DNA of 64,000 nt from Chitinophagaceae bacterium (lineage in GTDB: Bacteria > Bacteroidota > Bacteroidia > Chitinophagales > Chitinophagaceae). The stretch's first letter is position 1. Each line of letters opens with the position of its first letter. Positions 7,501-57,680 of this stretch are shown piece by piece. The notes under the pieces are model-generated. The model saw only the letters and a program-made list of their open reading frames with translations. It searched no databases and was not told where the DNA came from. The position numbers were made by a program, and so were the translations under genes. The stretch covers positions 62,001-126,000 of the forward strand of contig JAEUVO010000028.1 of NCBI GenBank assembly GCA_016786885.1, read 5' to 3'.

Positions 7501-8222
7501 TACTCTGCAGCGATCTCGCAAAATATGTCAGTTAGTATTTCCGGCTGGCTAAAAAATGGAGAATGGCTGGTTGCCATACGATAAACTTTTTTACAGGGAG
7601 TCTCTTCATACATCTTTTCCTGAATGAACGGTGTTACCGCCCTGTCTTCTGTGCATTCAATATAATACCGCGGCACAGAGCCAAAATTTTCTTCTGTCAG
7701 CTGAAGAGCTGTAATACCGGATTCAACAGGTTCATGACTCAGTAAAAGGTTGGCCAGTTCGGTTATATCATCATCACAATCATGATAAAGCCCTTCTTTA
7801 TAGATAGCCGGTTGTAATGTATGTGCATTCAGTTCGGGGAATGCTGTAACATAAGGTTTGAGCACCCCGCCTGTATCCAGCAAGGAATATTCCCGTTGTG
7901 TTTTTCCATCTGGTACCAGGTAAGCAGCGAGATAAATGAGCTTCTCGATTTTGTTTGGCCGGTATTCTGCTGCCTGCGAGATCATGATTCCATTTTTGCT
8001 ATGACCAACCAACACCACTTTGCCTTCAACACTATCGATCAGGCGGCAAATTCTTTCCACGGTTGTTTTCATTTTCACTTCTTGTATAGGTGTTTTATCT
8101 CTCCCCATACCGGGCAGATCAACTGCAATAGCTTTGTGACCGGCTTTCTCTAATAATGGCACTACTTTGTGCCAGTTCCATGCACTATGCCAGGAACCAT
8201 GAATTAAAATAAATGTCTTCAT
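7500..8222 (-). CDS. Alpha/beta hydrolase (plant MES/hydroxynitrile-lyase-like type)
   Basis: A 240-residue cytosolic alpha/beta hydrolase. It has the oxyanion-hole segment LIHGSWHSAWNW at residues 6-17, the nucleophile elbow GHSKNG with Ser75, and a C-terminal TSHSPFFSQP segment supplying His. This layout is typical of methyl-esterase/hydroxynitrile-lyase-like hydrolases such as EstC. The longer frame from 8300 has no clear start, and the ATG at 8222 places the first strand at the N-terminus. It follows the Ada-like gene by 64 bases on the same strand and may be cotranscribed. Substrate unknown. Confidence 0.82.
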   Translation of the reverse strand: MKTFILIHGSWHSAWNWHKVVPLLEKAGHKAIAVDLPGMGRDKTPIQEVKMKTTVERICRLIDSVEGKVVLVGHSKNGIMISQAAEYRPNKIEKLIYLAAYLVPDGKTQREYSLLDTGGVLKPYVTAFPELNAHTLQPAIYKEGLYHDCDDDITELANLLLSHEPVESGITALQLTEENFGSVPRYYIECTEDRAVTPFIQEKMYEETPCKKVYRMATSHSPFFSQPEILTDIFCEIAAE

Positions 8223-8286
8223 TGTATTTTTTTTGGATGTAAAAATGAAAAGAAGATAGAAGGACAACAACCCGGAACTTGCGGAC

Positions 8287-9117: not shown

Positions 9118-9221
9118 TGTTTTAAATTTACGACACAAAAATCGCATACACTGTTCCTGGGAACAACCCGTTTCTTGCGGAAAACCGGACTTCACTATTT
9201 TTATAACTTATTGATAGTATT

Positions 9222-10385
9222 ATGCACAAAAAAATTCTTCTTCTCGGCAGCGGTGAATTGGGTAAAGAACTGGTGATAGCATTAAAAAGACTCGGGCAAA
9301 CAGTGATTGCTGTTGACAGCTATGCCGGCGCACCAGCTATGCAGGTAGCTGACGGGTTTGAAGTGATCGATATGCTCAATGGCGAAGAATTAGATTCGGC
9401 AGTAACCAAACATCAGCCTGATTTGGTAGTACCCGAAATCGAAGCCATCAGAACAGAACGGTTCTATGAGTATGAAAAACAAAACATACAGGTAGTGCCC
9501 AGTGCCAGAGCGGCCAACTTCACCATGAACCGGAAACTCATCAGGGACCTGGCAAGTAAAGACCTGGGACTACGAACAGCGAAATATTTTTATGCAACTA
9601 CTTATGAAGAGTTTACGAAGGCAGTTAGTGATATTGGTTTTCCCTGTGTGGTAAAACCATTGATGTCGTCCAGCGGCAAAGGACAAAGCGTATTGAAGAA
9701 AACAGAAGACCAGCAAGCGGTATGGGAATATGCCATCAATAATTCAAGAGGTGATATCAAGGAAGTAATAATTGAAGAGTTCATTTCTTTTCATACTGAG
9801 ATAACATTGCTCACAGTTACACAAAAGAACGGAACAACACTTTTTTGTCCTCCGATCGGCCACCGGCAGGAAAGAGGCGATTACCAGGAAAGCTGGCAGC
9901 CCGTTGCCATTAGCGAAAGTGATTATAACGATGCCTGTGCTATGGCAGAAAAAGTAACAACAGCATTGACAGGTGCCGGCTTATGGGGAGTGGAGTTTTT
10001 CCTGACAGATAAAGGAGTATTTTTTTCGGAACTCAGTCCAAGGCCGCATGATACAGGAATGGTAACACTGGCCGGAACACAAAATTTATCTGAGTTTGAG
10101 TTGCATGCCCGAACAATTTTAGGATTACCTATTCCGGAAATAAAATTAGAAAGAGCAGGCGCCAGTGCCGTAGTATTAGCAAATAAAACAGCAGCACAAT
10201 TTACTATTGCAGGCGTTGAAAAAGCATTGGAGAAGATCAATACCGATGTCCGCATATTTGGTAAACCAACAACAAGGCCTTACCGGAGAATGGCGGTGGC
10301 ATTGGTATATGATGCCGTGGATGCAGATGTAAATGAATTACGGAAAAAAGCAAAGAATGCAGCCGATCAAATTACTATTCAATAA
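9222..10385 (+). CDS. purT: Phosphoribosylglycinamide formyltransferase 2 (formate-dependent)
   Basis: A 387-residue ATP-grasp enzyme converting GAR, formate and ATP to formyl-GAR in purine synthesis. The N-terminal segment [19 protein letters not shown] matches the PurK/PurT nucleotide fold. Also visible are [10 protein letters not shown], the ATP-grasp loop [15 protein letters not shown] and the metal-binding region [23 protein letters not shown]. Length matches the family (about 390). The cupin gene starts eight bases downstream, suggesting one transcript. Confidence 0.94.
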
Positions 10386-10392
10386 TTATAGT

Positions 10393-10752
10393 ATGGATAA
10401 AGTAAACCTTGCAGAAAAATTGTCCGGGTTCAGCGATTATTTTAATCCCCGTATTGCCGGTGAGCTAAACGGGCAACATATAAAGCTGGTAAAATTCAAA
10501 GGAGAGTTTGTGTGGCACCATCACGATAATGAGGATGAACTGTTTTATGTGGTCAAAGGAAGTTTTGACATGCATATGAGGGATAAGATTGTTACTATCA
10601 ACGAAGGCGAATTCATCATCATGCCTCGTGGAGTCGAACATAAACCAGTGGCGAATGAAGAAGTTGAGGTCATGCTGTTTGAGCCTGCTTCTACATTAAA
10701 TACAGGAAATGTCATCAATGAGAAAACAAGGACAAACCTGGAATCTATTTGA
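10393..10752 (+). CDS. Small cupin domain protein
   Basis: A 119-residue single-domain cupin. The first metal-binding motif is WHHHDNEDELFYVVKG and the second lies around IMPRGVEHKP, together giving the His/Glu ligands of a beta-barrel metal site. Cupins of this size act as isomerases, dioxygenases or ligand sensors. I chose the ATG at 10393, because the longer frame overlaps purT and adds residues unlike a cupin start. It is probably cotranscribed with purT; function unknown. Confidence 0.85.
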   Translation: MDKVNLAEKLSGFSDYFNPRIAGELNGQHIKLVKFKGEFVWHHHDNEDELFYVVKGSFDMHMRDKIVTINEGEFIIMPRGVEHKPVANEEVEVMLFEPASTLNTGNVINEKTRTNLESI

Positions 10753-10775
10753 ACACAGTTACCCGAATTAACAAA

Positions 10776-11300
10776 TTAACCAGTAGCCTCTACCATTTTC
10801 TTCAGGTTATTCAATCCCTGTTCAAACTGGTGATTCAGATTTTTGTTGATCATCGGCCCCATCAGTCTTGCCATCGGCCAGGGCAGATCTCCACTGTTTT
10901 GCCATGTTACTTTTGTTTCACCACCATCTCCCCATGGCTCAAACATCCAGTTGTCTTTCGCTTTGCTCTTCCATGGTTTCAGGAACTCCAGTTCAAAATG
11001 AATATGCTTATCATCTATGCGCTGCAGGGTTAAGCTGCCCACTCCAACTTTTTTTCCGGTCCATGAATATTTATGCCCCGGTGTGGCTGCTATGCCGGTG
11101 ATGGTGCTTTTGGCTGTAGGATCACTTTGCTGCCAGGGATTCCACTGACTGTAATAGTTCATATCACTGATGCGGTTCATCACATCAGTAACAGGGCGGC
11201 TGATGACAATAGTTTTTTCAACATTATAAATCTTAGGCATTAATGCTGCAGCGATCAGCAAACCGGCGATAAGACCGGCGAGTATATATATAATGATCAT
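10776..11300 (-). CDS. SRPBCC (polyketide cyclase-like) membrane-anchored protein
   Basis: A 174-residue protein with one N-terminal membrane segment (residues 2-22), followed by a START/Bet v 1-like domain: IVISRPVTDVMNRISDMNYYSQWNPW is a typical SRPBCC opening. Such domains hold hydrophobic ligands in a deep pocket. Catalytic function is unknown. It is convergent with the cupin gene, separated by about 23 bases. Confidence 0.8.
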   Translation of the reverse strand: MIIIYILAGLIAGLLIAAALMPKIYNVEKTIVISRPVTDVMNRISDMNYYSQWNPWQQSDPTAKSTITGIAATPGHKYSWTGKKVGVGSLTLQRIDDKHIHFELEFLKPWKSKAKDNWMFEPWGDGGETKVTWQNSGDLPWPMARLMGPMINKNLNHQFEQGLNNLKKMVEATG

Positions 11301-11361
11301 GGCAAACTTATTTGAACCAGTAAGGTAGCGAATAAGGATGGGCCTGACAATGATTTATATA

Positions 11362-11952
11362 TCAGCGGCGGGTGCGATAAAATTTTCCGGGCCGCAGATA
11401 GATAACACCCTGCTGTGTATAGAACCGGGTTGGCAGATCGGTATAACTACCATTGGCATCATACCCTCTTACTTCAAAATGTAAATGAGGAAAAGCGGAG
11501 TAACCTGTATTACCGCTTTTGCCAATAAGCTGCCCCGTTATTACTGTATCACCTGCTTGTACAAATACACTGTCTTTTTGGAAATGCCAGTAGTTAGCTT
11601 CAGAACCATCAGTATGTTTGATGAAGACATAATTGCCATCAGAAAGATTAGCTTGCTTTAAGCCACCAACATCGGAATCTTTCCGTACAGCAGTTACCAC
11701 ACCGCCCCTTGCTGCACACACCTTAGTGCCTGTCTTTACTTTAAAGTCAAGTGCTTTGGAACCCTTGTGGCTGAACATACTTTCGTATCCCTGCACCAAA
11801 AAAACTTTTTTACCTGTTTCAAATGGCAGAGTGTAGATATGACTGCTATCCTCTTTGAACTTTCCATCCTTTAATTGTGCAACAGTAAATTGCTGCTGTG
11901 CCCGGCAACAGATAGAAACAAGAAAACAATATAGCAGGAGTAGTGGCTTCAC
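11362..11952 (-). CDS. M23 family metallopeptidase (LytM-like), secreted
   Basis: A secreted peptidase of 196 residues if started at GTG 11952. The hydrophobic stretch KPLLLLYCFLVSICCRAQQQ acts as signal peptide. The M23 domain shows SKALDFKVKTGT with the first zinc ligands, and HLHFEVRG supplies His-x-His. M23 enzymes cut peptidoglycan cross-links or interpeptide bonds. The frame is open to an ATG at 12084, but that extension would run across a terminator hairpin. It is the intact paralogue of the broken gene at 6344-6940. Confidence 0.83.
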   Translation of the reverse strand: MKPLLLLYCFLVSICCRAQQQFTVAQLKDGKFKEDSSHIYTLPFETGKKVFLVQGYESMFSHKGSKALDFKVKTGTKVCAARGGVVTAVRKDSDVGGLKQANLSDGNYVFIKHTDGSEANYWHFQKDSVFVQAGDTVITGQLIGKSGNTGYSAFPHLHFEVRGYDANGSYTDLPTRFYTQQGVIYLRPGKFYRTRR

Positions 11953-12002
11953 AACAATTAAACGGGAGTCTACTATTGAAAAGTAATTTACATAGTAAAA
12001 TA

Positions 12003-12030
12003 AAAAAGCGGTCCTTTTAAGACCGCTATA
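12003..12030 (-). terminator. Rho-independent terminator of the alcohol dehydrogenase gene
   Basis: Perfect 7-bp GC-rich stem (12007-12013 with 12021-12027); on the minus strand the hairpin is followed by a run of T residues. It lies downstream of the stop at 12065. Confidence 0.78.
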
Positions 12031-12064
12031 ATAAAAATTAACATCTTGTTTACCGCATAAGACG

Positions 12065-13108
12065 CTACAAGCTTGCCATATCAATCACAAACCGGTATTT
12101 CACATCACTTTTCAATAACCGCTCATACGCCTCATTGATCTGATCCATGCGGATCATTTCAATATCACTTACAATATTGTGTTCGGCACAATAATCAAGC
12201 ATCTCTTGTGTTTCGGGTATACCGCCAATGAGTGAACCCCCAAGGCTTTTACGTCCGAAGATGAGACTTATAGGATGTAACGCTGCAGGTTCCGGCGGCA
12301 CACCCACACATACCATCACCCCATTGGTGCGAAGCATGCCAAGGTAAAAATTATAATCATGCGGTGCAGAAACAGTATCAAGTATAAAATCAAAATAGCC
12401 GGTTACACTTTTTGCCTGCTCTTCATTACTGGTCAGGATGAATTTATGCGCCCCCAGCCTTTTTGCATCTGCTTCTTTTGAAGGAGAATGACTCAGCATG
12501 GTTACTTCTGCTCCCATACTAACAGCAAACTTAACACCCATATGTCCCAAACCACCCAAACCAAGTATGCCCACCTTCATGCCCTTACCCACTTTCCAGT
12601 GACGCAGCGGTGAGTAGGTAGTAATACCTGCACAAAGCAAAGGAGCTGTAGCAGCAAGGTCCAGTTTGTCAGAAATATGCAGTACAAAATCTTCATTAGC
12701 AACAATAGCTTTGCTGTAACCACCATAAGTAATGCCGCTACCATCTCTTTCGTAACCGTTGTAACTGAATACAGCTCCGCCGGAGCAGTACTGTTCAAGA
12801 CCCTCTTTACAATTATCACATTCACGGCAACTGTCTACCAGGCAACCGATACCGGCAAGGTCACCGACCTTGAATTTTTTTACATGATCACCCACTGCCG
12901 TCACACGGCCCACAATCTCATGACCGGGCACTACCGGAAACACGGTCATTCCCCATTCATTACGGGCAAAGTGAAGATCACTGTGGCAGACGCCGCAATA
13001 GAGTATTTCTATGGCCACATCATGTGGCTTCGGAGTTCTGCGATCAAGCGTCCATGGTTCAAGAGGAGTAGTGGCAGTATGTGCGGCATAGGCTTTGGTA
13101 GCTGGCAT
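12065..13108 (-). CDS. Zinc-dependent NAD(P) alcohol dehydrogenase (YahK/cinnamyl-alcohol type)
   Basis: A 347-residue medium-chain dehydrogenase/reductase. Catalytic zinc ligands are Cys41 in GVCHSD and His63/Glu64 in PGHE. Four Cys at 94, 97, 100 and 108 bind the structural zinc. The nucleotide-binding Rossmann motif GLGGLGHMG is near residue 185. It is closest in pattern to YahK/CAD-type aldehyde reductases that use NADPH. It is a single-gene unit ending in a terminator, with a 291-base divergent region upstream toward the outer-membrane gene at 13400. Confidence 0.92.
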   Translation of the reverse strand: MPATKAYAAHTATTPLEPWTLDRRTPKPHDVAIEILYCGVCHSDLHFARNEWGMTVFPVVPGHEIVGRVTAVGDHVKKFKVGDLAGIGCLVDSCRECDNCKEGLEQYCSGGAVFSYNGYERDGSGITYGGYSKAIVANEDFVLHISDKLDLAATAPLLCAGITTYSPLRHWKVGKGMKVGILGLGGLGHMGVKFAVSMGAEVTMLSHSPSKEADAKRLGAHKFILTSNEEQAKSVTGYFDFILDTVSAPHDYNFYLGMLRTNGVMVCVGVPPEPAALHPISLIFGRKSLGGSLIGGIPETQEMLDYCAEHNIVSDIEMIRMDQINEAYERLLKSDVKYRFVIDMASL

Positions 13109-21675: not shown

Positions 21676-23781
21676 CTATTTTTTAAAAGCAAGAATTATT
21701 TTGGCTCCTTTTTGAAACTCTGCTGGAATGTCAAGATCATGTTCTTGAGGGAAAATCAGTTTTCCTTTTAATCCAAGCATCATAACTTCTACTAAGTGTA
21801 ATCCAAGCCCCATACCGTCTGGCTTATCAGTAATAAACGGTTTTATTGCATCTTCTGTAGGGATGCTAAAACCGGGGCCATTGTCCGCAATTAACAACGA
21901 AGTATATCCGGGCTCGTAATTATTCAATATATCAATATATACCTTTTTTACCTTTCTGTTTGCATATGTCATCCACCAAATTGAGTTATCAATTATGTTC
22001 ATAATTGAGCTAATAAATAGACTAGCAACACATGTAACGGTTGTATCTGATGACACCCTGTCTTTGTATGGGGTTATTAAAATTATTTTATGGGCTTTAA
22101 TTCTAAATTGTGTATTTGAGATAGCTCGGGATATTAATAAAATCAGATCTTCTTTTGTTTTAGCGCTTTTTCTCACGACTGAAGCATAATCAGTAACGGT
22201 CTTATCAAGCGTTTTAATCAAATCCTTTAAATACTTGTTGGTTGGAATTTCATCAACGGCTTTAACTAACTCATCGATTATCTTTTCTACTTCATGGATA
22301 ACAATACTCAAACTAAGTCCGGCAGAAGAACTTCTTGTATAGACATCGACTATTGTTTTATAATCAGTTTCTATACTTTTAATAGTTTTTAAAATATCAT
22401 CTCTTTTCTTTCCGGTTGGTATTATGCGATTTATTTTTTCTTTTAAGGTTTTTAACCTTCCAACAACTGGTTCTGAAACAGAGGTTGCCCCAAGTAATTT
22501 TCTAAGTTTTTCTTTATCAACATTTCTAAGGGATAAAACTTTTTCTATGAAGAAATTTACAGCGTCATGGAATGTTTCATAAACCTGATTTTCAATAAAC
22601 CCTTCCCGATTTGTTTTTTCTTGCAAACCGAGGCTTTTTAACCGATCAAGTTCAACGGCTCCGATTACAATATTGTTGCTAATATTTTCACCAGGCCGAT
22701 TTACTCTTTTAATATCAAGTTTTAACCAGTCATTATCTTTTTCGCCGTAATTAAAAATTCTTATGCCATCTCTATATACCCTTATGCCTCCATTAGCATC
22801 GAGATATTGTCTGAGCCCCTCTTTATCTGAGACTCCATAGTTTAAAACTTTAGGCTCTCTGTCAAAAATTAGCAATTTAATCGAAATTGGACCGATGTCA
22901 TATTTACCGATGTTTATTTCAACTTGTTTTTTTCTTTTTGTTTTCTCGTCTTTTACTTCTTTAATTAATTTAATATTGTTCAGGGTCTCTTTTCGGCCAT
23001 TAATCTTTTTCATGGCGTCCCACGGAATAAATTCATATTTTAATTTTTTAATTAGCCGGTTTTCTATAATCCCCTCTATTTTATAAAGACAATATTCTTT
23101 AATGTCTTCAAATTTGATTAACCCTCTTAGCCACTCTTGATTATCAAGCTTGAAAACAACATTGAAGGCATCAAGTGAAGCGAAAGGAGAGTTTAATGAA
23201 ATAGCAGACCGGTACAACTCTCTAACTGATGCCCTGTCCCAATCTTTTTTGAGTTTTTTAATTTTAATTAGTGTTCCGGATCTGCCATTAATAAAATAAA
23301 TTGGACGTTTTCTGTTCTCAAAGTCAATTTTAACTTTGTTTAGTGTTGTGTTTTTTTCAAAATCTGTCCAATTAATTTTTACAGCAATTTCTTCATCACT
23401 AGCGGTTTTACTTATTAGCTCAATATAATTGCCAAGCTTATGAACACCGAAGCGACCAATGCCTTTTTCACCAATGGGAATTCTATTTGATTTGACTCTT
23501 TTTTTAATTGAGGTTATGATTCTAAGTTTGTAATCACTTCCTGGCTGCATCCATACATTTCTAAAAATATCTTCATTCATTCCCACTCCATCATCTTCGA
23601 TTATTATTTCACCATTATCGATGTCGTCAATTCTTTTCATTATAACGCTTACTTTAGAAGCATATGCATCATAAGAGTTTTTGATTAATTCAAGTAGGGC
23701 TACCCCTTCATTACGGATTAATTGATCACCTAATTGTAGTAACAATCTAGCTCTAGGCTCAAAATTTATTTGTGTGTTCAT
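21676..23781 (-). CDS. Dual GHKL ATPase protein (HATPase_c_3 N-term plus histidine-kinase-like C-term)
   Basis: A 701-residue protein with two ATP-binding modules. The N-terminal one (about residues 20-190) is MutL/Hsp90-like: N-box ELIKNSYDA, G1 IEDDGVGM and lid GEKGIGRFG. The C-terminal module (about 590-700) is histidine-kinase-like: N-box IDNSIWW, G1 ADNGPGF and G2 GMGLGLHLV. A possible dimerisation helix with IHEVEK and His496 precedes it. No transmembrane segments or sensor domain are evident. It overlaps the methyltransferase gene by four bases and precedes the receiver-like gene by two. The long middle region has no known motif. Confidence 0.75.
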   Translation of the reverse strand: MNTQINFEPRARLLLQLGDQLIRNEGVALLELIKNSYDAYASKVSVIMKRIDDIDNGEIIIEDDGVGMNEDIFRNVWMQPGSDYKLRIITSIKKRVKSNRIPIGEKGIGRFGVHKLGNYIELISKTASDEEIAVKINWTDFEKNTTLNKVKIDFENRKRPIYFINGRSGTLIKIKKLKKDWDRASVRELYRSAISLNSPFASLDAFNVVFKLDNQEWLRGLIKFEDIKEYCLYKIEGIIENRLIKKLKYEFIPWDAMKKINGRKETLNNIKLIKEVKDEKTKRKKQVEINIGKYDIGPISIKLLIFDREPKVLNYGVSDKEGLRQYLDANGGIRVYRDGIRIFNYGEKDNDWLKLDIKRVNRPGENISNNIVIGAVELDRLKSLGLQEKTNREGFIENQVYETFHDAVNFFIEKVLSLRNVDKEKLRKLLGATSVSEPVVGRLKTLKEKINRIIPTGKKRDDILKTIKSIETDYKTIVDVYTRSSSAGLSLSIVIHEVEKIIDELVKAVDEIPTNKYLKDLIKTLDKTVTDYASVVRKSAKTKEDLILLISRAISNTQFRIKAHKIILITPYKDRVSSDTTVTCVASLFISSIMNIIDNSIWWMTYANRKVKKVYIDILNNYEPGYTSLLIADNGPGFSIPTEDAIKPFITDKPDGMGLGLHLVEVMMLGLKGKLIFPQEHDLDIPAEFQKGAKIILAFKK

Positions 23782-25010
23782 CCTAATATTTTACTCTTAA
23801 TTGAAGTAGCAATTTTTTTTGCCATAAGTGGTGGCACTGCATTTCCAATTTGTCTGAAGGCGGCTGATCTTACTTTTAATACATCAATACCTTCAAAAAA
23901 ATAATCATCCGGGAACGACTGAATTCTGGCTGCTTCCCGTACAGATATTGACCTGAGTTGAGTTGTTGACGGATAAATGAAGTGGTGTCCATCTCTTGAA
24001 AGATGTGCTATTACTGCATGAGGTTTTTTCCCGACAACTTTAAACCGGTCTAGAAAATCAGTAATATTTTTTTGTGTTCTTTTCCTTTCAGGTATTTCGT
24101 TGTTCTTTAAAATTCTACCTTCATTTTCCAGTTTTTCAACTGCCATCTTGTAGATTTCCAGGTCTTTTTTGTTATGCGGTCTGGTTATATGCTGACTTAC
24201 AAAATCAACACAGTTTCTGATCTCTGTCTTCTTAAGGTACTCATTAATTGGATGTATATATTGAGATGTCCTGTCATTCTGATTAGGCATAATTGGAGGT
24301 AAATCTGAAAAAATATCAGCTCTGGTAAATGTGTGATTAAGTTTCTTGAATTTAGGATATGAGAACTTCAGGTTCTTTCTCCATCCTATAACAATCACCC
24401 TTTCCCTGTTTTGAATAACACCAAAGTCAAAAGCGTTTACCTTAGAATCATTAAGATTGTACCCAAGTCTTTTAAAATATTTTTTCAGATTCTTGTAATA
24501 CTCACCGTTACCCGCCGTCTTGATTCCCGGAACATTCTCAAATACGAACATTTTAGGTTTATATTTCTTCAGAAACTTGCCATACTCTTTATAAAGAAAA
24601 TTTCTTTCGTCATTTTTCACCTTGCTTTTTAATGCTGCTCTTCCAATGTAAGAATAAGCCTGACAAGGCGGCCCACCAACAATCAGATCAATTCTTCTTT
24701 TATCTTTTAACTTGTCAATTGCTTGAAAAATTTGTTTAGTCGTTTTCCCGCCAACTGATGCATTAATTACAGACGAAAGTTCTTTTTCCGGAACATAAGA
24801 ATATAACTGATCTCTGCTGATCTCACCCCGGAGATATTGCTCATAGATATGTTTTTTTCTGATACGGCGGAGATAATGATATGCAACCCTTGTTTTCAAC
24901 GTTAAACAAGCTGCTTTATCTTTTTCAACATGAGCAATTGGCTTGAAGCCTGCCTTTATAAAACCTTCGGATAAACCCCCGGCTCCGGCAAACAGGTCAA
25001 TAAAATTCAT
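23778..25010 (-). CDS. DNA (cytosine-5) methyltransferase
   Basis: A 410-residue C5 methyltransferase with motif I FAGAGGLSEGF, motif IV GGPPCQAYS (catalytic Cys116), motif VI ENVPG, motif VIII QNRERV, motif IX SVREAARIQSFPDDY and motif X RQIGNAVPP in canonical order. The variable target-recognition region lies between about residues 225 and 360. It methylates DNA to protect self from the operon's nuclease. Recognition sequence is unknown. It is the first gene of the minus-strand operon; the convergent vsr gene fits a C5 methylation system. Confidence 0.95.
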   Translation of the reverse strand: MNFIDLFAGAGGLSEGFIKAGFKPIAHVEKDKAACLTLKTRVAYHYLRRIRKKHIYEQYLRGEISRDQLYSYVPEKELSSVINASVGGKTTKQIFQAIDKLKDKRRIDLIVGGPPCQAYSYIGRAALKSKVKNDERNFLYKEYGKFLKKYKPKMFVFENVPGIKTAGNGEYYKNLKKYFKRLGYNLNDSKVNAFDFGVIQNRERVIVIGWRKNLKFSYPKFKKLNHTFTRADIFSDLPPIMPNQNDRTSQYIHPINEYLKKTEIRNCVDFVSQHITRPHNKKDLEIYKMAVEKLENEGRILKNNEIPERKRTQKNITDFLDRFKVVGKKPHAVIAHLSRDGHHFIYPSTTQLRSISVREAARIQSFPDDYFFEGIDVLKVRSAAFRQIGNAVPPLMAKKIATSIKSKILG

Positions 25011-34816: not shown

Positions 34817-34971
34817 TAGTTGAACGAGGACTGGATAACGGAGAGGGATTATTTTTTCTGCGGCTAATAAAATGGCCAGATCACCCACAGCAAAAAATAC
34901 GGAGACTGTAAATTTTGACAGCAGACGGTGTTTATATAGGTGAATGCCTGGTCAGTTTATTAACTTTAAGT

Positions 34972-35958
34972 ATGAACCAGATAGAAATATACCAGACTAA
35001 GGGTAAGCAGGTTGAAGTGAAATTTGAGGGAAACTCTGTGTGGCTAAACCAATACCAATTATCGGAACTATTTTCCACAGACAGAACCTCTGTGCTTAAA
35101 CATCTGAAAAATATATTTAAAACCAAGGAGTTAGATGAGAAAATAACTTGTGCAAAATTTGCACAAGTTCAAAAAGAAGGAAACAAAACAGTAAAGAGGG
35201 AAATCCTGCACTACAATTTGGACGCTATAATTTCCGTAGGGTATCGTATCAATTCCAAAAGGGGTACCCAGTTTCGCCAGTGGGCCACACAGCGGTTAAA
35301 TGACCACCTTGTAAAAGGATATACACTTAATGAAAAAAGACTGGAGCGGGTACATCAGAGTTTGTATGAACTGAAAAAAGCAGTAACACTGATTGAAAAA
35401 TCAGGGAATGCCGGGCAGCTAAGTATATCCGAAGCCCAAGGCCTGCTGGAAATTATTACTAACTACACCCAAAGCTTCATTCTGCTCAACCAGTTTGACA
35501 GCAACAACCTGCCCGAGGCAAAGCTGAGTGAGAATATTACTTATGAAATTGAGTATAATGAAGCGATAAAAGCAATTACAGAACTGAAGAAACAGTTAGT
35601 AAAAAAGAAAGAAGCTTCTGCTTTGTTTGGCAATGAACGGGACGGAGCTTTTGGCGGGATTTTAAATTCAGTGGTACAAACTTTTGACGGCGAATACTTA
35701 TACAAAAGCATTGAGGAACAGACAGCTCACCTGCTGTATTTTGTTATCAAGAATCACCCGTTTACTGATGGTAATAAGCGAATCGGCGCTTTCCTGTTTG
35801 TATGGTTCCTGGAAAAGAACAAACACCGCTTTAAAAAATCAGGAGAACTAAAAATTAATGACAATGCATTAGTGGCTCTTGCATTGTTGGTGGCACAAAG
35901 CAACCCGGATGATAAAGATATCATGATCAAACTGGTGGTCAATTTGATCAGAAGTTAA
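34972..35958 (+). CDS. RhuM-Fic/Doc fusion protein
   Basis: A 328-residue protein in two parts. The N-terminal 115 residues are a RhuM-type virulence domain (VWLNQYQLSELFSTDRTSV and ILHYNLDAIISVGYRINSK), which may bind DNA. The C-terminal part is a Fic/Doc fold with motif HPFTDGNKRIG starting at residue 262. The last Arg of the classical Fic motif is absent, as in Doc-type proteins. Activity (AMP transfer or phosphorylation) cannot be told. No antitoxin gene is evident nearby. I chose the ATG at 34972, as the upstream extension starts with an unusual codon. Confidence 0.82.
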   Translation: MNQIEIYQTKGKQVEVKFEGNSVWLNQYQLSELFSTDRTSVLKHLKNIFKTKELDEKITCAKFAQVQKEGNKTVKREILHYNLDAIISVGYRINSKRGTQFRQWATQRLNDHLVKGYTLNEKRLERVHQSLYELKKAVTLIEKSGNAGQLSISEAQGLLEIITNYTQSFILLNQFDSNNLPEAKLSENITYEIEYNEAIKAITELKKQLVKKKEASALFGNERDGAFGGILNSVVQTFDGEYLYKSIEEQTAHLLYFVIKNHPFTDGNKRIGAFLFVWFLEKNKHRFKKSGELKINDNALVALALLVAQSNPDDKDIMIKLVVNLIRS

Positions 35959-50610: not shown

Positions 50611-51021
50611 CTATTTAAATGTTCTCATATAATTAACTATGGCCCAGATATCATTAGCGACAGGGATCTTGGTTTTATAAGAAGGCATATCTTTTCTACC
50701 CTGGTAAGTTTTGTAAAATAATGAGCCATCAGTTTGGGACTGGAAAGAAGCTTTTGTAAAATCACCACTTTCTGTATCCAGTTGGGCTGCTTTAGGGCCA
50801 TCTCCTTTTCCTTTTGTTCCATGGCATGATTTGCAGTGCTGGGTATACAAGGTCTTACCTGTAGTCAACGACCCGGCATCGTCCTTAAGAGGATTCACTT
50901 TGTTCTTGTAATTATCAGGCACAGGCCATGGCTCCTGTGAAGTTTCTTTTGGCACAAATGCGAGTAAGCCAATGGTAAAAAGGCTAAAGAGCAGAACAGT
51001 TACATTTTTTTTCATTTTCAT
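50611..51021 (-). CDS. Small periplasmic c-type cytochrome
   Basis: A 136-residue secreted class I cytochrome c with a signal peptide (residues 1-22). The heme motif is CKSCHG (about 63-67), and the axial Met is in KDMPSYK. It ends with the helix DIWAIVNYMRTF, typical of cytochrome c555/caa3-like domains. It is the last gene in the minus-strand operon that begins at 54613 and probably carries electrons from the NrfCD-like module. Confidence 0.92.
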   Translation of the reverse strand: MKMKKNVTVLLFSLFTIGLLAFVPKETSQEPWPVPDNYKNKVNPLKDDAGSLTTGKTLYTQHCKSCHGTKGKGDGPKAAQLDTESGDFTKASFQSQTDGSLFYKTYQGRKDMPSYKTKIPVANDIWAIVNYMRTFK

Positions 51022-51050
51022 TGATTTTACTTATTAAAGATGTATGTGTA

Positions 51051-51977
51051 TTAAGAATTAGTTGCATTGCCTGGTAAAACCGGTTGTTCTTTTCTTAAAC
51101 GAAACAGTTCATATACAATGACAATATAGTGCCCCCAAACTGCCACCATTAAGATAGCAAATGTGATCAACATCCACATCGGTGGATGCGAACTCCATAA
51201 AGCTCTTGGTTGTTCTTCCAGTTTGTCTGACACCGGAACACCCCATTTTTCAATGGCAGAAGCTTCAAGATTACCATAGGTATCATTTTCTTCCAGCCTG
51301 GCAATCAGTGTAATATTTCCTTTTGCATCACCGGGAAGATTGTTGGGTATTTCAATGGTTGCTTCACCATTTTCATCTGTGGCGCCCTCTCCTACTTTTA
51401 AAGGATTGAATAAACGCTTAACAAAAATACCCAGTGTGATTTCCGGTACAGGTGTCTCAGTTCCGGACCCAACATCAACCAGTTTTACCTGTACGGTTAG
51501 TAAAGAATCTTCTTTAACGGGAGTCAGTGTAAGCAGGGCTCTTTTTATAGTTACTTCTCCTTCTGCCCCTTCCATTGATTTATTGCCGGCTACAATTGCT
51601 TTAAAATAAAGCTGCCCCTCCTTATTGGTAACCACCTGTTCTGCTTTTACATTCAGCACCGCATTACCGTTTCTGTCGGTGATAGCAGTACCTAATTCGT
51701 TTTCCGCAGAATCGGTAACGAGGTAGAATTTTATTTTAAAGCTATGCAATTGGGTAAGCGTACCCTTGATCTTTGCTTTAAGAGATGCTTTCAGATCAAT
51801 AGTATTGTCACTTTTCTGCACGGTTACCAGATCAAGTGTCGGAGAGATCAGTGCCGGTTCATCTGCTGTCGCCTCTGTTGCTTCCTGCTGTGCAGTACTG
51901 TCGGTTTGCCCGGCAAGGGTTATTGAAAAAATGAGACAGCAAAGTAAACCGGTTATTAATAATAATGGACGTTTCAT
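51051..51977 (-). CDS. Periplasmic protein with C-terminal anchor, operon partner of NrfD-like protein
   Basis: A 308-residue exported protein with a signal peptide and a single membrane segment near the C-terminus (about 267-293, MWMLITFAILMVAVWGHYIVI). The exposed part has two or more beta-sandwich-like repeats (DRNGNAVLNVKAEQVV, DENGEATIEIPNNL). No heme or Fe-S motif. It lies 10 bases after the NrfD-like gene, so the two are likely to function together. I do not recognise the family. Confidence 0.65.
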   Translation of the reverse strand: MKRPLLLITGLLCCLIFSITLAGQTDSTAQQEATEATADEPALISPTLDLVTVQKSDNTIDLKASLKAKIKGTLTQLHSFKIKFYLVTDSAENELGTAITDRNGNAVLNVKAEQVVTNKEGQLYFKAIVAGNKSMEGAEGEVTIKRALLTLTPVKEDSLLTVQVKLVDVGSGTETPVPEITLGIFVKRLFNPLKVGEGATDENGEATIEIPNNLPGDAKGNITLIARLEENDTYGNLEASAIEKWGVPVSDKLEEQPRALWSSHPPMWMLITFAILMVAVWGHYIVIVYELFRLRKEQPVLPGNATNS

Positions 51978-51987
51978 ACAAAATATT

Positions 51988-53346
51988 TTAAGCAGGTTGT
52001 ACTTCTTCTTTTTTAATAACTGGATGAACAGATTCCTGATGTTTATTATTTGTGTCTTCCAATCCAGTTATTGGAACAACGGTTACAAACTTTGACATCA
52101 CCGTAAAGAACAAAAGGAATGTGGCAATACCAGCAATGGTAAGCACCCATTCGGGCCAGGTAGCAGCATATTTTACATATTCGGTTCTTGTATCCTGCAT
52201 AGGAAGCAAAGTTGTTTCAAGTGTAGGTACAATAATGAGGTAACGTTTTACCCACATGGCTATCACCATTATAAAAGCTACTAAGGTTATCCAGTTGGGT
52301 TTTCGTGTAGCAGGGATTGCCACAATAAGAATAGGAATAAAAATTCCTGCCAGATTAGCAAACAGCGTCCACCAGCCATATTCAGAAGGGCTGAATAATT
52401 TATGGATCAGTTCTCCATCCCATTTTTCTGAGCCAAACCAGCTGGTAAAATATTCGGAAAAAGTAAAATAGCCATAGCCTGCAGCCAGCACCAGCATAAT
52501 ATAACCAAGGTAAGTAAAGTGTTTATCGGTAAAATAATTATTGAGCTTGTACATTTTTCTGTAAAACCACATAGCCACGATCAGTACACCACAACCGGAA
52601 TAAAGAGCACCAATTACAAAATAAGGCCCGAAGATAGTGCTATGCCACCCGGGGCGTAGTGTCATACCAAATATCCAGGAAAGAATGGATGCTACTATGA
52701 TGGAAAGTGGTATCATAATAATGGCCAGCAGATTTTGAGAAATGATCAGGTGTCTTTTCTGACTGGCAGCTCCCCGGTAACCAAGAGATAATGCTTTATA
52801 TAATTTTTGCTTCCATTTAGGAATATCCAGTTTGGCATCACGATATACAGCAAAGTCTTTTATCAGTGCCATATAAAGGAACAGAACACTTCCCGCAAAA
52901 AATGTAACAACAGCCATCACATCCCATGTCATAGGAGACTGTATCCTTGGGTAAACAAATAAGTGGTGCAGCCTGTCGAACCGGCCCACACATAAAAGAA
53001 TAAAAACAGGACCGACAACCACCGAGATAATGGTCATGAACTGCGCCAGCCTTACAATGGGTTTACCCCAGCTTACTTTAGACAAATGCAGTATACCAGC
53101 TATAATAGCTCCTGCATAACTAAGGCCGATAAAGAAGATAAAGTTGACAATAAACAGACCCCATACCACATTATCCCGCATACCAGTAACGCCATGCCCC
53201 TTTGCGATCTGCAGGTACAATGCATATGCCCCCGCTATGATACATAGCAGGTAAAAAATGGTCCAACCCCATGCCCTTTTGCCATACTTCTCGATAGTCT
53301 TCCGCTGGTAATTGAAAGCTTCCTGTTGGTAGTTATTGAGTTCCAT
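51988..53346 (-). CDS. NrfD/PsrC-like quinol-interacting membrane protein
   Basis: A 452-residue membrane protein with about ten segments. It resembles NrfD/PsrC and ActC-like quinol-binding subunits of electron transfer complexes (NVVWGLFIVNFIFFIGLSYAG near the N-terminus, QKRHLIISQNLLAIIMIP mid-protein). It probably passes electrons from menaquinol to the partner Fe-S protein or in reverse. No catalytic molybdopterin subunit is present in the operon. Confidence 0.85.
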   Translation of the reverse strand: MELNNYQQEAFNYQRKTIEKYGKRAWGWTIFYLLCIIAGAYALYLQIAKGHGVTGMRDNVVWGLFIVNFIFFIGLSYAGAIIAGILHLSKVSWGKPIVRLAQFMTIISVVVGPVFILLCVGRFDRLHHLFVYPRIQSPMTWDVMAVVTFFAGSVLFLYMALIKDFAVYRDAKLDIPKWKQKLYKALSLGYRGAASQKRHLIISQNLLAIIMIPLSIIVASILSWIFGMTLRPGWHSTIFGPYFVIGALYSGCGVLIVAMWFYRKMYKLNNYFTDKHFTYLGYIMLVLAAGYGYFTFSEYFTSWFGSEKWDGELIHKLFSPSEYGWWTLFANLAGIFIPILIVAIPATRKPNWITLVAFIMVIAMWVKRYLIIVPTLETTLLPMQDTRTEYVKYAATWPEWVLTIAGIATFLLFFTVMSKFVTVVPITGLEDTNNKHQESVHPVIKKEEVQPA

Positions 53347-53387
53347 AATTCAGCTATTCGTTGAGTGATTGGTGTAATCTTTCCGCA

Positions 53388-54356
53388 CTAATTCTTTTTC
53401 TCAAAAATGTCTTTGTATTCTTTAAATCTTTCTTTCAGGTCATCGCTTAATGATTCATATCCTCTTTCTACCGGGAACTGCCTGTCTTTTGGTGGCAGAT
53501 AATATACTCTTGGTTTAGTGCCCAACTCTTCCATATACCGATAACCAGCTCTGTCTTTTATTAATTGGGTGAAGCTGACCGTTTCGCTGCCATTGGTTAC
53601 AGTGTCTTCATTTTCATCACCGAAATAGAATACACCATTCGGGCAAGCTTCCACACAAGGAGGAAGCAAACCTTCTTTTGCTCTGTCAGGACAGAAATCA
53701 CATTTTTCCACGGTACCCACTTTGGCAGGGATACCTGTTTCGGGATTGTAAACAAGATTTTTTATATCGAACGAAAGATCAGGTTCATCCCAGTTAAATA
53801 CCCTGGTGGAATAAGGACAAGCCGCCATACAGAATTTACACCCAATACAACGGTCGTTGTCGATCAACACTATACCGTCCTGCCTTTTATAAGTGGCGTC
53901 AACCGGGCAAACTTTTACACAAGGGGGATTATCACAATGGAAGCATTGTTTGGGAAACCAGTAAGGAGCTCCTTTATCACTATCTTTTAATAATTTAACG
54001 GTGAGCCATTCTGTTTCTTCCGGACGATAGTGCCATTTCTGGCAAGCGGTTATACACTTACGGGCATTTTTGCAAAGAGCCAGGTCAACCACCATTACAA
54101 ATTTTTTTCCGGCAATGCCCTCCCTTGCTTCCAGTTTGGAAACAATAGCCATATGCTCCTGGTGATTCAAATAAGCAGAATCAATTTCAACTATTTCTCC
54201 ATCAGGAGAAAGCAATTTGACTTTTTCGTTGATACCTGCTTTTTTAGAAGAGCAGGAACAGGCCAAGCTTCCGCAGGCAGCAGTTGCTACGGTAGCTATA
54301 GTTGCGGTTTTCAAAAAATCCCGCCGGCTTTTGTCATTTACTTCTTCTTGTTTCAT
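53388..54356 (-). CDS. NrfC-like 4Fe-4S dicluster protein with Tat signal
   Basis: A 322-residue exported protein with a Tat signal (SRRDFLK, residues 10-16). It carries four Cys clusters: LALCKNARKCITACQKWH, CFHCDNPPCVKVCPVD, RCIGCKFCMAACPYS and CDFCPDRAKEGLLPPCVEAC. This matches NrfC/PsrB-like proteins with four 4Fe-4S clusters. I chose the ATG at 54356. It passes electrons between the NrfD-like protein and periplasmic carriers. Confidence 0.92.
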   Translation of the reverse strand: MKQEEVNDKSRRDFLKTATIATVATAACGSLACSCSSKKAGINEKVKLLSPDGEIVEIDSAYLNHQEHMAIVSKLEAREGIAGKKFVMVVDLALCKNARKCITACQKWHYRPEETEWLTVKLLKDSDKGAPYWFPKQCFHCDNPPCVKVCPVDATYKRQDGIVLIDNDRCIGCKFCMAACPYSTRVFNWDEPDLSFDIKNLVYNPETGIPAKVGTVEKCDFCPDRAKEGLLPPCVEACPNGVFYFGDENEDTVTNGSETVSFTQLIKDRAGYRYMEELGTKPRVYYLPPKDRQFPVERGYESLSDDLKERFKEYKDIFEKKN

Positions 54357-54388
54357 TGTTAAGTATAATAAGGAGTGATAAGAATTGG

Positions 54389-54613
54389 TCAACTGTTTTC
54401 TTTGGAGGGATTCTTCATCCAGTTATAGATCTCTTTATTGGTAGCTTTTTGTTTTTTTGTCACTGCGTCAAACAAGGCCTTATTCACTTCCACCAATTTC
54501 CCATCTGCAGTCAGCATTTTAATCTTCTCTGAGCTGTTCTTTTCTTTTTGTGATAACAGAAGTGAAAAGAACCAGCGGCGGGATTTATCTGCTGTTTTTT
54601 TATTGTTTCCCAT
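54389..54613 (-). CDS. Small Tat-like protein with segment shared with the Fe-S protein
   Basis: A 74-residue protein beginning with a Tat-like SRRWFFSLLL stretch and continuing with SEKIKMLTADGKLVEVNKAL. That segment parallels the Fe-S protein's NEKVKLLSPDGEIVEIDSAY. It has no Cys clusters. Its stop is 32 bases from the Fe-S gene start, making it the first gene of the operon. It may be a small maturation or assembly partner, or a relic of duplication; I do not recognise a family. Confidence 0.6.
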   Translation of the reverse strand: MGNNKKTADKSRRWFFSLLLSQKEKNSSEKIKMLTADGKLVEVNKALFDAVTKKQKATNKEIYNWMKNPSKENS

Positions 54614-54878
54614 ACATAACCGGTTTGTAATTATTTAATAAAAAAAGGTGATGCAACTTATTTATGAGTTTTTGACCATCTCATGACAAGGGTCAAGCTA
54701 ATAAGTGAGAAATGTCACAAATACACGGTTTTGATGACAATTAGTTTACAATGTGACTAAAGTCATATATCAAACAGTTGCCTGTCATGGAACTGTCAGA
54801 ACCCTCTAAATATTTTTGACAGTGCATTTCTAAAAGTTCTTATTTGTATCAATCTTCAATAAGTTAAACTAGCTTTTT
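54614..54878. promoter_or_regulatory. Divergent control region of the two electron-transfer operons
   Basis: A 265-base region between the minus-strand Fe-S/NrfD operon and the plus-strand cytochrome/barrel operon. It contains six TGACA or TGTCA half-sites (at about 54684, 54713, 54735, 54783, 54794, 54817) and a TTGACC...GGTCAA inverted repeat (54672-54696). A transcription factor of the CRP/FNR superfamily acting on both operons is plausible, but no binding is shown. Confidence 0.5.
54751..54768. promoter_or_regulatory. CRP/FNR-like palindrome
   Basis: The site reads ATGTGACTAAAGTCATAT. It matches TGTGA-N6-TCACA at nine of ten core positions and is nearly symmetric. It lies about 111-128 bases upstream of the plus-strand start at 54879 and about 140 bases from the minus-strand start at 54613. 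Confidence 0.45.
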
Positions 54879-56069
54879 ATGAAAAAAGTTTCAATCATGC
54901 AAGCAGCCGCCCTGTTCCTAGTGGTTTTCTTTCTATCGGCTTCTTTGCTGCAGTGTACAAAAGATGGGGAACTCGTAAAGAACCTCGACAGGTCTTATAC
55001 GGGTGGGCCAGACTCAACCGTTTATGCAGCTTTTTATGAAAGCAATACGATTGCTACTGCCGATGCTGTACCAGATGTAAATGATGTGATCAAGATGAGG
55101 GGTGTACAAACCATCATTCATGAGTATTGCAACACCTCAAATTGTCATGGCGGGCCTATTGCACCACGTTTTGAAATCTACTCCCAGATCATGCAATATG
55201 TGAAACCCGGCGATCCGGAAAGAAGCAAGCTGTGGGAATATATTACTACCAATGATTTTGATAATGCAATGCCTCCTGTAAACTCCAATTATGAATTAAG
55301 TACAAGAGATAAAAGCATAGTATATAACTGGATCAAGAATGGAGCTAAAGAAAAACCCGATTTGAGTGATTTCAGGCCAGCAGCGATCAGAATATTAGTA
55401 GACGGATGTAGTTCAGCCAACTGTCACAATACAGCTACAGCTACAGGAGGATGGGCAAGAAAGGGGCTGATTCCCGGACTTACTTCTGCAGATACTACAC
55501 AATTTACCTATATAAATCCTACAACGGGATCAGTTACTGTTTACTGTCAGTTGTCCAATCAAACACTGAGGAACCAGGCATGGACAGCTTATAAAGACAG
55601 TGTGAAAAGGTTCTATGCAGATACTGTCGCCAATGCCAGCTTCCGTCCATGGAAAACTGTCAGTACTCCCGTTTCAGCATTAAGCACAAGAGGACCATTG
55701 AATAATTATGATGATATCCTGATGGATATTCTTTATCCAAAGTCAGTAAGGACTGTTAGCTCTGTAGTATATACAGACCCGGTTACTCTTAAAGGATATT
55801 ATGTAAGAGGAAATCCGCTTGTAAGCACCGATTGTTTTGTACGTCGCATGGATTCTACATTGATCTATCGTAACCCACTAACCCTTGTTGAAGCTTCTGT
55901 TAGCGGTAATATGTCCTATGATGATGGTGGATTTAAACCTTCAGAAGTAGCTCTTTTTAAAGCTTGGTATTTTGCTGATCCTAACATTCCGGATGTATGG
56001 AAATATGGTTTTGCTAATGTCGGCATCTTCAAATACAGGAAGACCGGTAACTATATCATTAAGCGATAA
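54879..56069 (+). CDS. Lipoprotein with two CX4CH heme-like motifs
   Basis: A 396-residue lipoprotein with lipobox at Cys26 (SLLQCTKD). Two heme-like motifs are CNTSNCH and CSSANCH, each with four residues between the Cys. Otherwise it is unlike classical cytochromes; the body is polar with a Tyr/Asn-rich region. The CX4CH motif is known from some cytochromes, so heme binding is likely but not proven. It is followed at 33 bases by a second heme-motif protein and then a beta-barrel. Confidence 0.7.
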   Translation: MKKVSIMQAAALFLVVFFLSASLLQCTKDGELVKNLDRSYTGGPDSTVYAAFYESNTIATADAVPDVNDVIKMRGVQTIIHEYCNTSNCHGGPIAPRFEIYSQIMQYVKPGDPERSKLWEYITTNDFDNAMPPVNSNYELSTRDKSIVYNWIKNGAKEKPDLSDFRPAAIRILVDGCSSANCHNTATATGGWARKGLIPGLTSADTTQFTYINPTTGSVTVYCQLSNQTLRNQAWTAYKDSVKRFYADTVANASFRPWKTVSTPVSALSTRGPLNNYDDILMDILYPKSVRTVSSVVYTDPVTLKGYYVRGNPLVSTDCFVRRMDSTLIYRNPLTLVEASVSGNMSYDDGGFKPSEVALFKAWYFADPNIPDVWKYGFANVGIFKYRKTGNYIIKR

Positions 56070-56102
56070 ACCTCATCAACTCATTCAAAAATTATCAGGT
56101 AT

Positions 56103-56726
56103 ATGAAAAAGAAAATAACCTTAGCAGCACTGGCAACTTCATTGATGGTGTACCTGTTTTCATCCTGTTATCAGAATAAAGAAGATATTTTGGAACTTCC
56201 GAGAGTTTCATTTCGGAGTGAAGTAGTTCCGATTGTTACCGCAGGTCCTTGTGGTTGCCATAATACCAGTGTAAACGTCCGGGCCGTCTTATTCTCCGAT
56301 CAACGGACCAATACAATATTTTATGATGCCATTTTGGCCCGAAGAGGAGCATTTAGTAGTTGGGTTAACGGCGGAACACACCCCGGAGCTGGAGCTATTG
56401 ATTTTTCTCTTACAGAGAAAAACATTATTAAAAAATGGATTGATCAGGGCGAACCTTACGATGATGGTGCAGGCTGTACTGTTTCTGGTAACCTCACATA
56501 TACTGCCGATATAGTCCCTATATATACTACCAGCTGTAAAGGGGCAACCTGTCATGGAGGTATTGCCGCACCTATCGATTACGCAAAAATGGTGGCTAAA
56601 AAAGATGTATTGCTGACCATTTTGAACAGTGGGGGCAACCAAGGACATCCAGGCGGAGCATTGAGTCTTACTACCTGTACAGTCAACAAGATGAAAGCAT
56701 GGATTGCCCAAGGGCAACCTCAATAA
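56103..56726 (+). CDS. Lipoprotein with CX4CH heme-like motif
   Basis: A 207-residue lipoprotein with lipobox SSCYQN (Cys21). One CX4CH motif is CKGATCH near residue 150, and a shorter CGCH pattern is near residue 50 (VTAGPCGCHN). It parallels the preceding protein in arrangement. Function is inferred from motif and context only: a heme-binding electron carrier at the periplasmic or outer face. It lies 33 bases after the preceding gene and 36 bases before the barrel gene. Confidence 0.65.
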   Translation: MKKKITLAALATSLMVYLFSSCYQNKEDILELPRVSFRSEVVPIVTAGPCGCHNTSVNVRAVLFSDQRTNTIFYDAILARRGAFSSWVNGGTHPGAGAIDFSLTEKNIIKKWIDQGEPYDDGAGCTVSGNLTYTADIVPIYTTSCKGATCHGGIAAPIDYAKMVAKKDVLLTILNSGGNQGHPGGALSLTTCTVNKMKAWIAQGQPQ

Positions 56727-56762
56727 AAGAAAATAAATGTTCTTACTAAAAAATAAGACAAT

Positions 56763-57680
56763 ATGAAAAAGATACTACTGCTTTTTGTTTTCGGATTTGG
56801 CCTGATGGCAATGGGTGTTGCGCAAGACGAACCCGAAGCTGAAAAAAAAGAAACGCCTAAGAGAAAATATGCCCGGGCAACATTTAATGCTACCAAGATC
56901 ATTAATATGCAGAGCACAGAAATTGTAAGTAAGGGTAATTTGCAATTTTTAATCTCTCACCATTTCAGCAACCTGTGGAATAAAGATGCTACAGAAGGTG
57001 AAAACTTCGCCCAACTGCTGGGCTTGAACTCAGGTGTTGCTAACACTTATCTGTCCTTTGATTATTCCATTACTGACTGGGCTAATATTGGATGGGCTGC
57101 AGCAGGACGCAGCCGCTTTGAAGGCTTTGCCAAGTTTCGACTGCTGCGTCAGCAAACAGGATTGAAAAATATTCCTGTATCTATTAGTTGGTATTCTGCG
57201 GCACATGTAAATGCTGCTAAAAATGCTGATATAATTTTTGGATGGAACAAATGGGCATTTATGCACCAATTACTGGTTGCCCGGAAGTTTTCCGACAAAT
57301 TCTCATTGCAGTTTAACCCGGCGTTGATTCATTTTAACGTTGTGCCTTATGGTATCAACAACAGCAATATGGTTTATTCATTAGGATTCTCCGGCAAGTA
57401 CAAAATGTCCGCCAAAAAGAACCTTACATTTGAATACAGCAGGCAACTGAACATGCATAAAAACCTGATCGATAAGAATGGTAATATCGTTAACTACAGC
57501 CCTGATTTGCTCTCTGTTGGCCTTGAATTAAATACAGGAGGTCACTTGTTCCAGTTTTATGTAGGAAGCACTACTGCTGCTTCACCAATTGATCAGCTGG
57601 CAAGAAATACAAGCTGGATAAAAGACGGAGAATTTGCCTTTGGTTTCACAATTAACCGAACAATGAGTCTGAAAAAGTAG
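56763..57680 (+). CDS. DUF5777-type outer-membrane beta-barrel protein
   Basis: A 305-residue exported protein with a signal peptide (residues 1-20, cleavage after GVAQ). A barrel-like pattern runs to the C-terminus (FAFGFTINRTMSL), with strands such as ANTYLSFDYSITDWANIGWA and KYKMSAKKNLTFEYSRQL. This resembles the DUF5777 beta-barrel family found with periplasmic cytochromes. It may host or export the preceding heme-motif lipoproteins, but that is inference. A terminator follows. Confidence 0.75.
   Translation: MKKILLLFVFGFGLMAMGVAQDEPEAEKKETPKRKYARATFNATKIINMQSTEIVSKGNLQFLISHHFSNLWNKDATEGENFAQLLGLNSGVANTYLSFDYSITDWANIGWAAAGRSRFEGFAKFRLLRQQTGLKNIPVSISWYSAAHVNAAKNADIIFGWNKWAFMHQLLVARKFSDKFSLQFNPALIHFNVVPYGINNSNMVYSLGFSGKYKMSAKKNLTFEYSRQLNMHKNLIDKNGNIVNYSPDLLSVGLELNTGGHLFQFYVGSTTAASPIDQLARNTSWIKDGEFAFGFTINRTMSLKK

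Follow-up and report, generated by a model that had tools for sequence, protein, structure and literature searches.

A Bacteroidota gene set pairing a predicted NrfD-type quinol module with putative heme lipoproteins and a DUF5777 outer-membrane barrel

Results

The DNA analysed here, referred to as the window, is a 64-kb stretch of contig JAEUVO010000028.1 from a Chitinophagaceae bacterium; the subject of this report is a pair of divergent operons in it that encode a predicted quinol-oxidising inner-membrane module and a predicted outer-membrane unit, and all coordinates are window positions. Seven annotated genes and an additional 74-aa open reading frame (ORF) were confirmed by ORF mapping and by Pfam and NCBIfam searches (Table 1). 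From the divergent region outward, the leftward operon encodes the 74-aa twin-arginine translocation (TAT)-like protein, an iron-sulfur (Fe-S) protein, an NrfD-type membrane subunit, an immunoglobulin (Ig)-like protein and a monoheme cytochrome c, and the rightward operon encodes, in order, the lipoproteins L1 and L2 and a DUF5777 barrel. A first-pass annotation of the same DNA had described an NrfC/NrfD-like module without a molybdopterin subunit alongside a cytochrome c, with two heme-motif lipoproteins and a DUF5777 barrel opposite; the former was confirmed by Pfam, NCBIfam and gene maps, and the latter was likewise borne out, with heme motifs that are mostly CX4CH. No molybdopterin gene adjoins the module in the gene maps of the window or of the 80 loci described below, and an Rfam search of the window returned no match.

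The novelty claim of the first-pass annotation was the pairing of the two operons, for which co-occurrence in other genomes had been set as the test beforehand. Among 117 genomes of the window's family, four others (G091, G086, G019 and G027) carry NrfD orthologues with 70-88% identity, and the complete divergent set is kept in all four; a farther group, with 33-38% NrfD identity, has the same parts in a single co-directional operon. A scan of a second collection yielded 80 loci from Chitinophagaceae, Sphingobacteriaceae, Saprospiraceae, Cyclobacteriaceae, Flavobacteriaceae and Bacteroidales, some of which may be of the same species as the four family genomes; 49 of these have sufficient flanking sequence and were eligible for counting. 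A heme lipoprotein gene and a DUF5777 gene adjoin the Fe-S/NrfD genes (within ~10 kb) in 43 of the 49 eligible loci, usually in one operon, and the divergent layout is also seen in L037, L038 and L079. Carriers that can be cultured include Lutibacter oceani, L. litoralis, Niastella vici, Flavihumibacter profundi and Solitalea agri. Furthermore, in a phylum sample of 296 Bacteroidota genomes, the Fe-S protein is present in seven, and a DUF5777 gene lies no more than 2.5 kb away in all seven. DUF5777 itself is present in 115 genomes of this sample, at about one to four copies each; because 43 of 49 loci are paired though such genomes hold only this many copies, the pairing is far beyond chance, and it is real and widespread. 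The same counts show that the dependence is one-way, as the inner-membrane module nearly always occurs with DUF5777, while DUF5777 often occurs without the module, in which case its neighbours are usually a monoheme lipoprotein and a YceI protein.

The nearest solved chains to the NrfD protein are those of ActC from alternative complex III (6f0k_C, E 3e-50), and its best NCBIfam model, DsrP, scores below the cut-off (75 bits versus 350). D142 aligns with D165 of ActC from the bacterium's own genome, in the quinone-site region, and is invariant in 85 of 85 sequences. A second quinone-site position, in transmembrane helix (TMH) 2, is His139 in ActC and Asp in DsrP (PMC8076601); in the NrfD proteins of the module, this position is Asp in 47 sequences and Cys in 30, the window's protein having Cys. 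With the quinol-oxidising ActC as its closest solved relative, NrfD is predicted to be the menaquinol-oxidising subunit. NrfD proteins of the module fall into Cys and Asp types at the TMH2 position, and L034 has one of each; tandem Fe-S/NrfD/Ig duplicates within one operon occur in L034, L066, L084, L092, L107 and other loci.

The best NCBIfam model for the Fe-S protein is DsrO, again below the cut-off (186 bits versus 200), and the models nearest to the module also include QrcD/QrcC. The protein has an invariant TAT-type RR pair and four cluster motifs, the first of which lacks its second Cys in most members. This leaves 15 cluster cysteines, and the clusters are probably three 4Fe-4S and one 3Fe-4S, in an ActB-like 3+1 arrangement. 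The true start of the protein is probably the ATG at 54356 and not the listed TTG, since the 74-aa ORF occupies 54389-54613; Fe-S orthologues start at MKQEE, and homologues of the 74-aa ORF precede the Fe-S gene in 28 of the 49 eligible loci. For the 308-aa protein encoded downstream of NrfD, no domain exceeded the Pfam cut-off and all Ig-like matches were sub-threshold; a homologue is present in 44 of 49 eligible loci, making it a conserved partner of NrfD. The monoheme cytochrome c, a candidate periplasmic shuttle, has a homologue in 48 of the 49.

Both lipoproteins of the rightward operon have good lipoboxes (LLQ-C26 and FSS-C22), and their putative heme-binding motifs are mostly CX4CH instead of CXXCH: L1 has two of these and L2 has one, together with a CXCH. 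When compared to relatives that are 47-71% identical, the L1 motifs are invariant in six aligned sequences and the L2 motifs in nine, as are H93 and H182 of L2. The CXCH is an odd candidate heme-attachment motif, and the homologous second half of L2 carries CX4CH; H93 could be a distal heme ligand. The L1 N-terminus following the lipobox, C-T-K-D-G-E, resembles the Bacteroidota surface-export signal C-X-K-(D/E)2 (PMC5080379), with the difference that L1 reads K-D-G-E and not K-(D/E)2. Lysine at +3 from the lipidated Cys was found in 57 of 102 module lipoproteins versus 9 of 69 other lipoproteins in the same loci, counts in which related sequences are not independent. An AlphaFold model of L1, built from six sequences, had a predicted local distance difference test score (pLDDT) of 35 and was not used.

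The AlphaFold2 model of the DUF5777 protein predicts a 12-stranded barrel (mean pLDDT 86.9, predicted template modelling score 0.81), and its best structural matches (VIA; Z 17-18) are FapF (Z 18.4) and KdgM (Z 18.1), along with NanC and a COG4313 channel. The window's protein has neither a cysteine nor a heme motif, a DUF5777 profile gave nothing convincing against PDB sequences, and in the literature searched no paper names DUF5777 or reports the YceI/NrfD/barrel combination. The first-pass annotation had likened the system in principle to porin-cytochrome systems, and this part did not stand: the predicted 12 strands compare with 26 in MtrB/PioB (PMC10654088) and 16-17 in Cyc2 (PMC8406198, PMC10654088), and there is no multiheme cytochrome in the window. 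As the modelled barrel looks too narrow for an MtrAB-type cytochrome plug, DUF5777 is not filed as a porin-cytochrome complex, and the comparison no longer stands as a family assignment; it is retained solely as one possible functional analogy. Two DUF5777 residues, H66 in strand 1 and H261 in strand 11, are invariant and, by strand alternation, face outward with aromatic residues; they could form a partner or cofactor site, and a heme between them was considered from strand alternation alone.

The position directly upstream of the gene pair for the L2-type heme lipoprotein (HL family) and DUF5777 is an exchangeable slot, holding an EB_dh (PF09459), YceI (PF04264), hexaheme or diheme lipoprotein; in the window it holds the diheme L1. 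In relatives, the hexaheme lipoprotein matches MtrC/MtrF below the threshold, and several Bacteroidales loci add a seven-heme cytochrome and a cytochrome b561. In Ferruginibacter (L033), an in-operon EB_dh-HL-DUF5777 unit and a divergent L1-L2-DUF5777 unit both lie beside one inner-membrane module, whose Fe-S protein is 84% identical to the window's; the DUF5777 proteins of the divergent and in-operon units share 66% and 28% identity, respectively, with that of the window. The outer-membrane units thus appear to be interchangeable on a single inner-membrane module. A membrane cytochrome of ~500 aa with seven hemes and a NapC/NirT-type N-terminus is encoded near the module in the Bacteroidales loci L044, L045, L081 and L087.

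The palindrome TGACN4GTCA occurs only twice in the 64 kb, both times in the promoter region shared by the two operons. Across the 80 loci, the 46.9 kb upstream of module genes contain it 24 times, compared to 11 occurrences in the 53.8 kb that precede other genes and 11 in 1,158 kb of coding sequence, and it is present in the divergent regions of L011, L038 and L079 as well as of the window. A Crp/Fnr gene lies near the module in 23 of the 80 loci, and none was found in the window. The bacterium's own genome has the extended site TGACN4GTCAT upstream of RIC (an Fe-S repair gene next to ccoG), and also upstream of another gene for this kind of cytochrome c and of a type III sulfide:quinone oxidoreductase (SQR)/DsrC/DsrE2 locus. 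Because the palindromes resemble FNR boxes, low-oxygen control of both operons through these putative CRP/FNR sites would be the simplest reading. The sulfur locus (L164; G000:C85:57000-68000) encodes a type III SQR, TusE/DsrC, DsrE2, a Sulf_transp protein and a diheme SoxA/TsdA-domain cytochrome, and the best model for its SQR is a selenoprotein subtype (644 bits).

Table 1. Positions and supporting features of the two divergent operons in the window
Feature	Position	Strand	Basis
Monoheme cytochrome c	50611..51021	(-)	Pfam Cytochrom_C PF00034, 46.6 bits; one CXXCH; signal peptide, no lipobox
Ig-like extracytoplasmic protein, 308 aa, C-terminal transmembrane helix	51051..51977	(-)	Sub-threshold Ig-type hits
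NrfD-type membrane subunit	51988..53346	(-)	PF03916, 102 bits (Pfam cut-off 25.8)
TAT-exported Fe-S protein	53388..54392	(-)	Fer4_11; 15 cluster cysteines; likely start ATG 54356
74-aa TAT-like protein	54389..54613	(-)	KSRRWFF; KIKMLTADGKLVEV motif, common to N-terminal part of Fe-S protein
CRP/FNR-type palindrome TGACAAGGGTCA	54684..54695		TGACN4GTCA match
CRP/FNR-type palindrome TGACTAAAGTCA	54754..54765		TGACN4GTCA match; found too in L011 divergent region
L1 lipoprotein	54879..56069	(+)	PSCyt1, 26.5 bits; two CX4CH
L1 first CX4CH, C84/C89-H90	55128..55148	(+)	Motif scan and alignment
L1 second CX4CH, C177/C182-H183	55407..55427	(+)	Motif scan and alignment
L2 heme lipoprotein, HL family	56103..56726	(+)	HL profile, E 6e-15; one CXCH and one CX4CH
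L2 CXCH, C50-G-C52-H53	56250..56261	(+)	Invariant, 9 aligned sequences
L2 CX4CH, C145/C150-H151	56535..56555	(+)	Invariant, 9 aligned sequences
DUF5777 outer-membrane barrel	56763..57680	(+)	PF19089, 214 bits (Pfam cut-off 23.1)

Elsewhere in the window, a C5-cytosine DNA methylase is encoded beside an HATPase_c_3 protein (21676-25010), possibly a restriction/defence island, and a RhuM/Fic-domain protein (34915-35958) lies amid OmpA-family proteins and proteins sorted by the type IX secretion system (Por_Secre_tail).

Discussion

The closest functional precedent, by analogy, is SirCD of Shewanella oneidensis, which feeds extracellular respiration and can stand in for CymA in ferric citrate, DMSO (dimethyl sulfoxide) and fumarate respiration (PMC11434368). 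In SirCD, as in NrfCD, MccCD and CbcTU, a 4Fe-4S protein is combined with an NrfD/PsrC-type subunit in the absence of a molybdenum subunit, and periplasmic cytochromes receive the electrons; the gene set described here likewise has an NrfD/PsrC-type subunit, an exported four-motif Fe-S protein, a c-type cytochrome partner and no molybdopterin subunit. It differs from SirCD in that an Ig-like membrane protein, a small TAT-like protein and a barrel/heme-lipoprotein unit are fixed in one gene set.

Other known systems share individual parts with the gene set. Alternative complex III (ActABCDEF) is similar in that NrfD is nearest to ActC, the predicted 3+1 clusters are as in ActB and the cytochrome is weakly like ActE; it was ruled out, as the operon lacks the ActA pentaheme protein, the Mo-like ActB domain, ActD and ActF, and a complete alternative complex III-caa3 operon is encoded separately in the bacterium's genome, at C71. 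DsrMKJOP supplies the best NCBIfam models, DsrO and DsrP, and was ruled out because both equivalog scores fall under their cut-offs (186/200 and 75/350 bits) and no DsrM, DsrK or DsrJ is alongside. MtrCAB and other porin-cytochrome conduits resemble the set in having an outer-membrane barrel gene adjoining heme lipoprotein genes, and were ruled out by the 12 predicted versus 26 strands and by the lack of a decaheme plug, as the window proteins have one or two heme motifs; seven-heme proteins occur in some Bacteroidales loci only. Cyc2 likewise joins a monoheme-type domain to an outer-membrane barrel, and was ruled out by the separate genes, the lipoprotein in place of a fused plug, the 12 versus 16-17 strands and the cysteine-free DUF5777; Fe(II) oxidation, moreover, is not known here. 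Finally, the HL-YceI-DUF5777 sets of Bacteroidota, for which no published name was found, share the barrel and monoheme lipoprotein families and differ in that no Fe-S/NrfD module adjoins them in the stretches seen. A paralogous copy lies at C85 in the bacterium's own genome (L006, G000:C85:120000-139000, positions 6522-12254), where two heme lipoproteins, an OB-like protein, YceI and DUF5777 are followed by a TonB-dependent receptor. The gene set is not described in the consulted passages of an Mtr survey (PMC8805035) and of a deep-sea chitin paper (PMC13374861).

We consider it fairly probable that the two operons form one envelope-spanning respiratory branch for low oxygen that runs from quinol to the outer membrane. 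In this branch, NrfD would oxidise menaquinol under low oxygen, and the exported Fe-S protein, with its four clusters, would relay the electrons to the monoheme cytochrome c and from there to the heme lipoproteins, which would be kept at the outer membrane with the DUF5777 barrel. Because the slot that L1 occupies holds hexaheme, EB_dh or YceI lipoproteins in other species, L1 would probably set the terminal acceptor, which is most likely extracellular or on the cell surface. The first-pass annotation had outlined such an electron route; the route gains from the co-occurrence, from the shared promoter with its two putative CRP/FNR sites and from the SirCD precedent (PMC11434368), while the porin-cytochrome likeness that accompanied it is lost. 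It should be noted that several observations weigh against this interpretation. No acceptor was identified, nor was a regulator in the bacterium's own genome; the quinone-site acid or His is replaced by Cys in NrfD of the window's clade; the HL-DUF5777 pair is missing in six of the 49 eligible loci; and the Fe-S/NrfD module was not found in 108 of the 115 genomes of the phylum sample that have DUF5777, so that DUF5777 is not specific to the module. The divergent regions of L012, L013 and L014 gave no match to the palindrome, no protein of the window set has more than two heme motifs, and a 12-stranded predicted barrel without a heme motif leaves the crossing of the outer membrane by electrons unexplained.

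The gene set may represent a Bacteroidota-specific extracellular respiration whose mechanism is unlike that of MtrAB or Cyc2. A dedicated menaquinol dehydrogenase would supply heme lipoproteins on the cell surface, with the electrons passing either within the narrow 12-stranded barrel or alongside it, and different terminal reductases would plug into the exchangeable slot; we advance this tentatively and think it somewhat doubtful. Alternatively, the lipoproteins could form a periplasm-facing outer-membrane reductase, with DUF5777 as a plain solute channel that admits a small acceptor or shuttle and with no electrons crossing the outer membrane. The 12 predicted strands, the best structural matches to FapF, KdgM, NanC and the COG4313 channel, the lack of a heme motif in DUF5777 and the restriction of the window set to monoheme- and diheme-type motifs all fit such a channel, and neither EB_dh nor YceI domains are known to act as conduits. 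However, module lipoproteins are enriched in N-termini with a surface-export-like C-X-K (PMC5080379), and hexaheme lipoproteins that are weakly MtrC-like occupy the same slot in relatives; we regard the channel explanation as rather unlikely.

The direction of electron flow could also be reversed, with the outer membrane as the site where sulfur or another donor is oxidised, and with electrons moving inward via the cytochrome and the Fe-S protein to reduce quinone. The presence of DsrO, DsrP and QrcD/QrcC among the nearest NCBIfam models speaks for this, as does the extended palindrome upstream of the type III SQR-DsrC-DsrE2 genes, with a SoxA/TsdA-domain cytochrome nearby; however, the NrfD sequence is closest to the quinol-oxidising ActC, the palindrome is also found at RIC, a neighbour of cbb3 accessory genes, and so speaks for low oxygen more than for sulfur, and no sulfur gene recurs beside the module in the 80 loci, making electron input improbable. 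That the operons are unrelated and neighbours by chance would suit their opposite strands and the presence of DUF5777 elsewhere in the same genome, but we give this almost no credence, since 43 of 49 loci keep the two parts together, mostly as a single operon, and the palindromes lie in a common promoter region.

Redox-stratified lakes, sediments and soils harbour abundant Bacteroidota, yet the literature searched yielded no account of a path by which electrons travel from the quinone pool of these bacteria to the outer membrane. Altogether, these data suggest an undescribed low-oxygen respiration in Bacteroidota. The combination of a fixed inner-membrane part with a changing terminal lipoprotein would provide a direct handle on the acceptors that these bacteria use, and DUF5777 adjoining a DsrO-like Fe-S gene may serve as a marker for the gene set in metagenomes.

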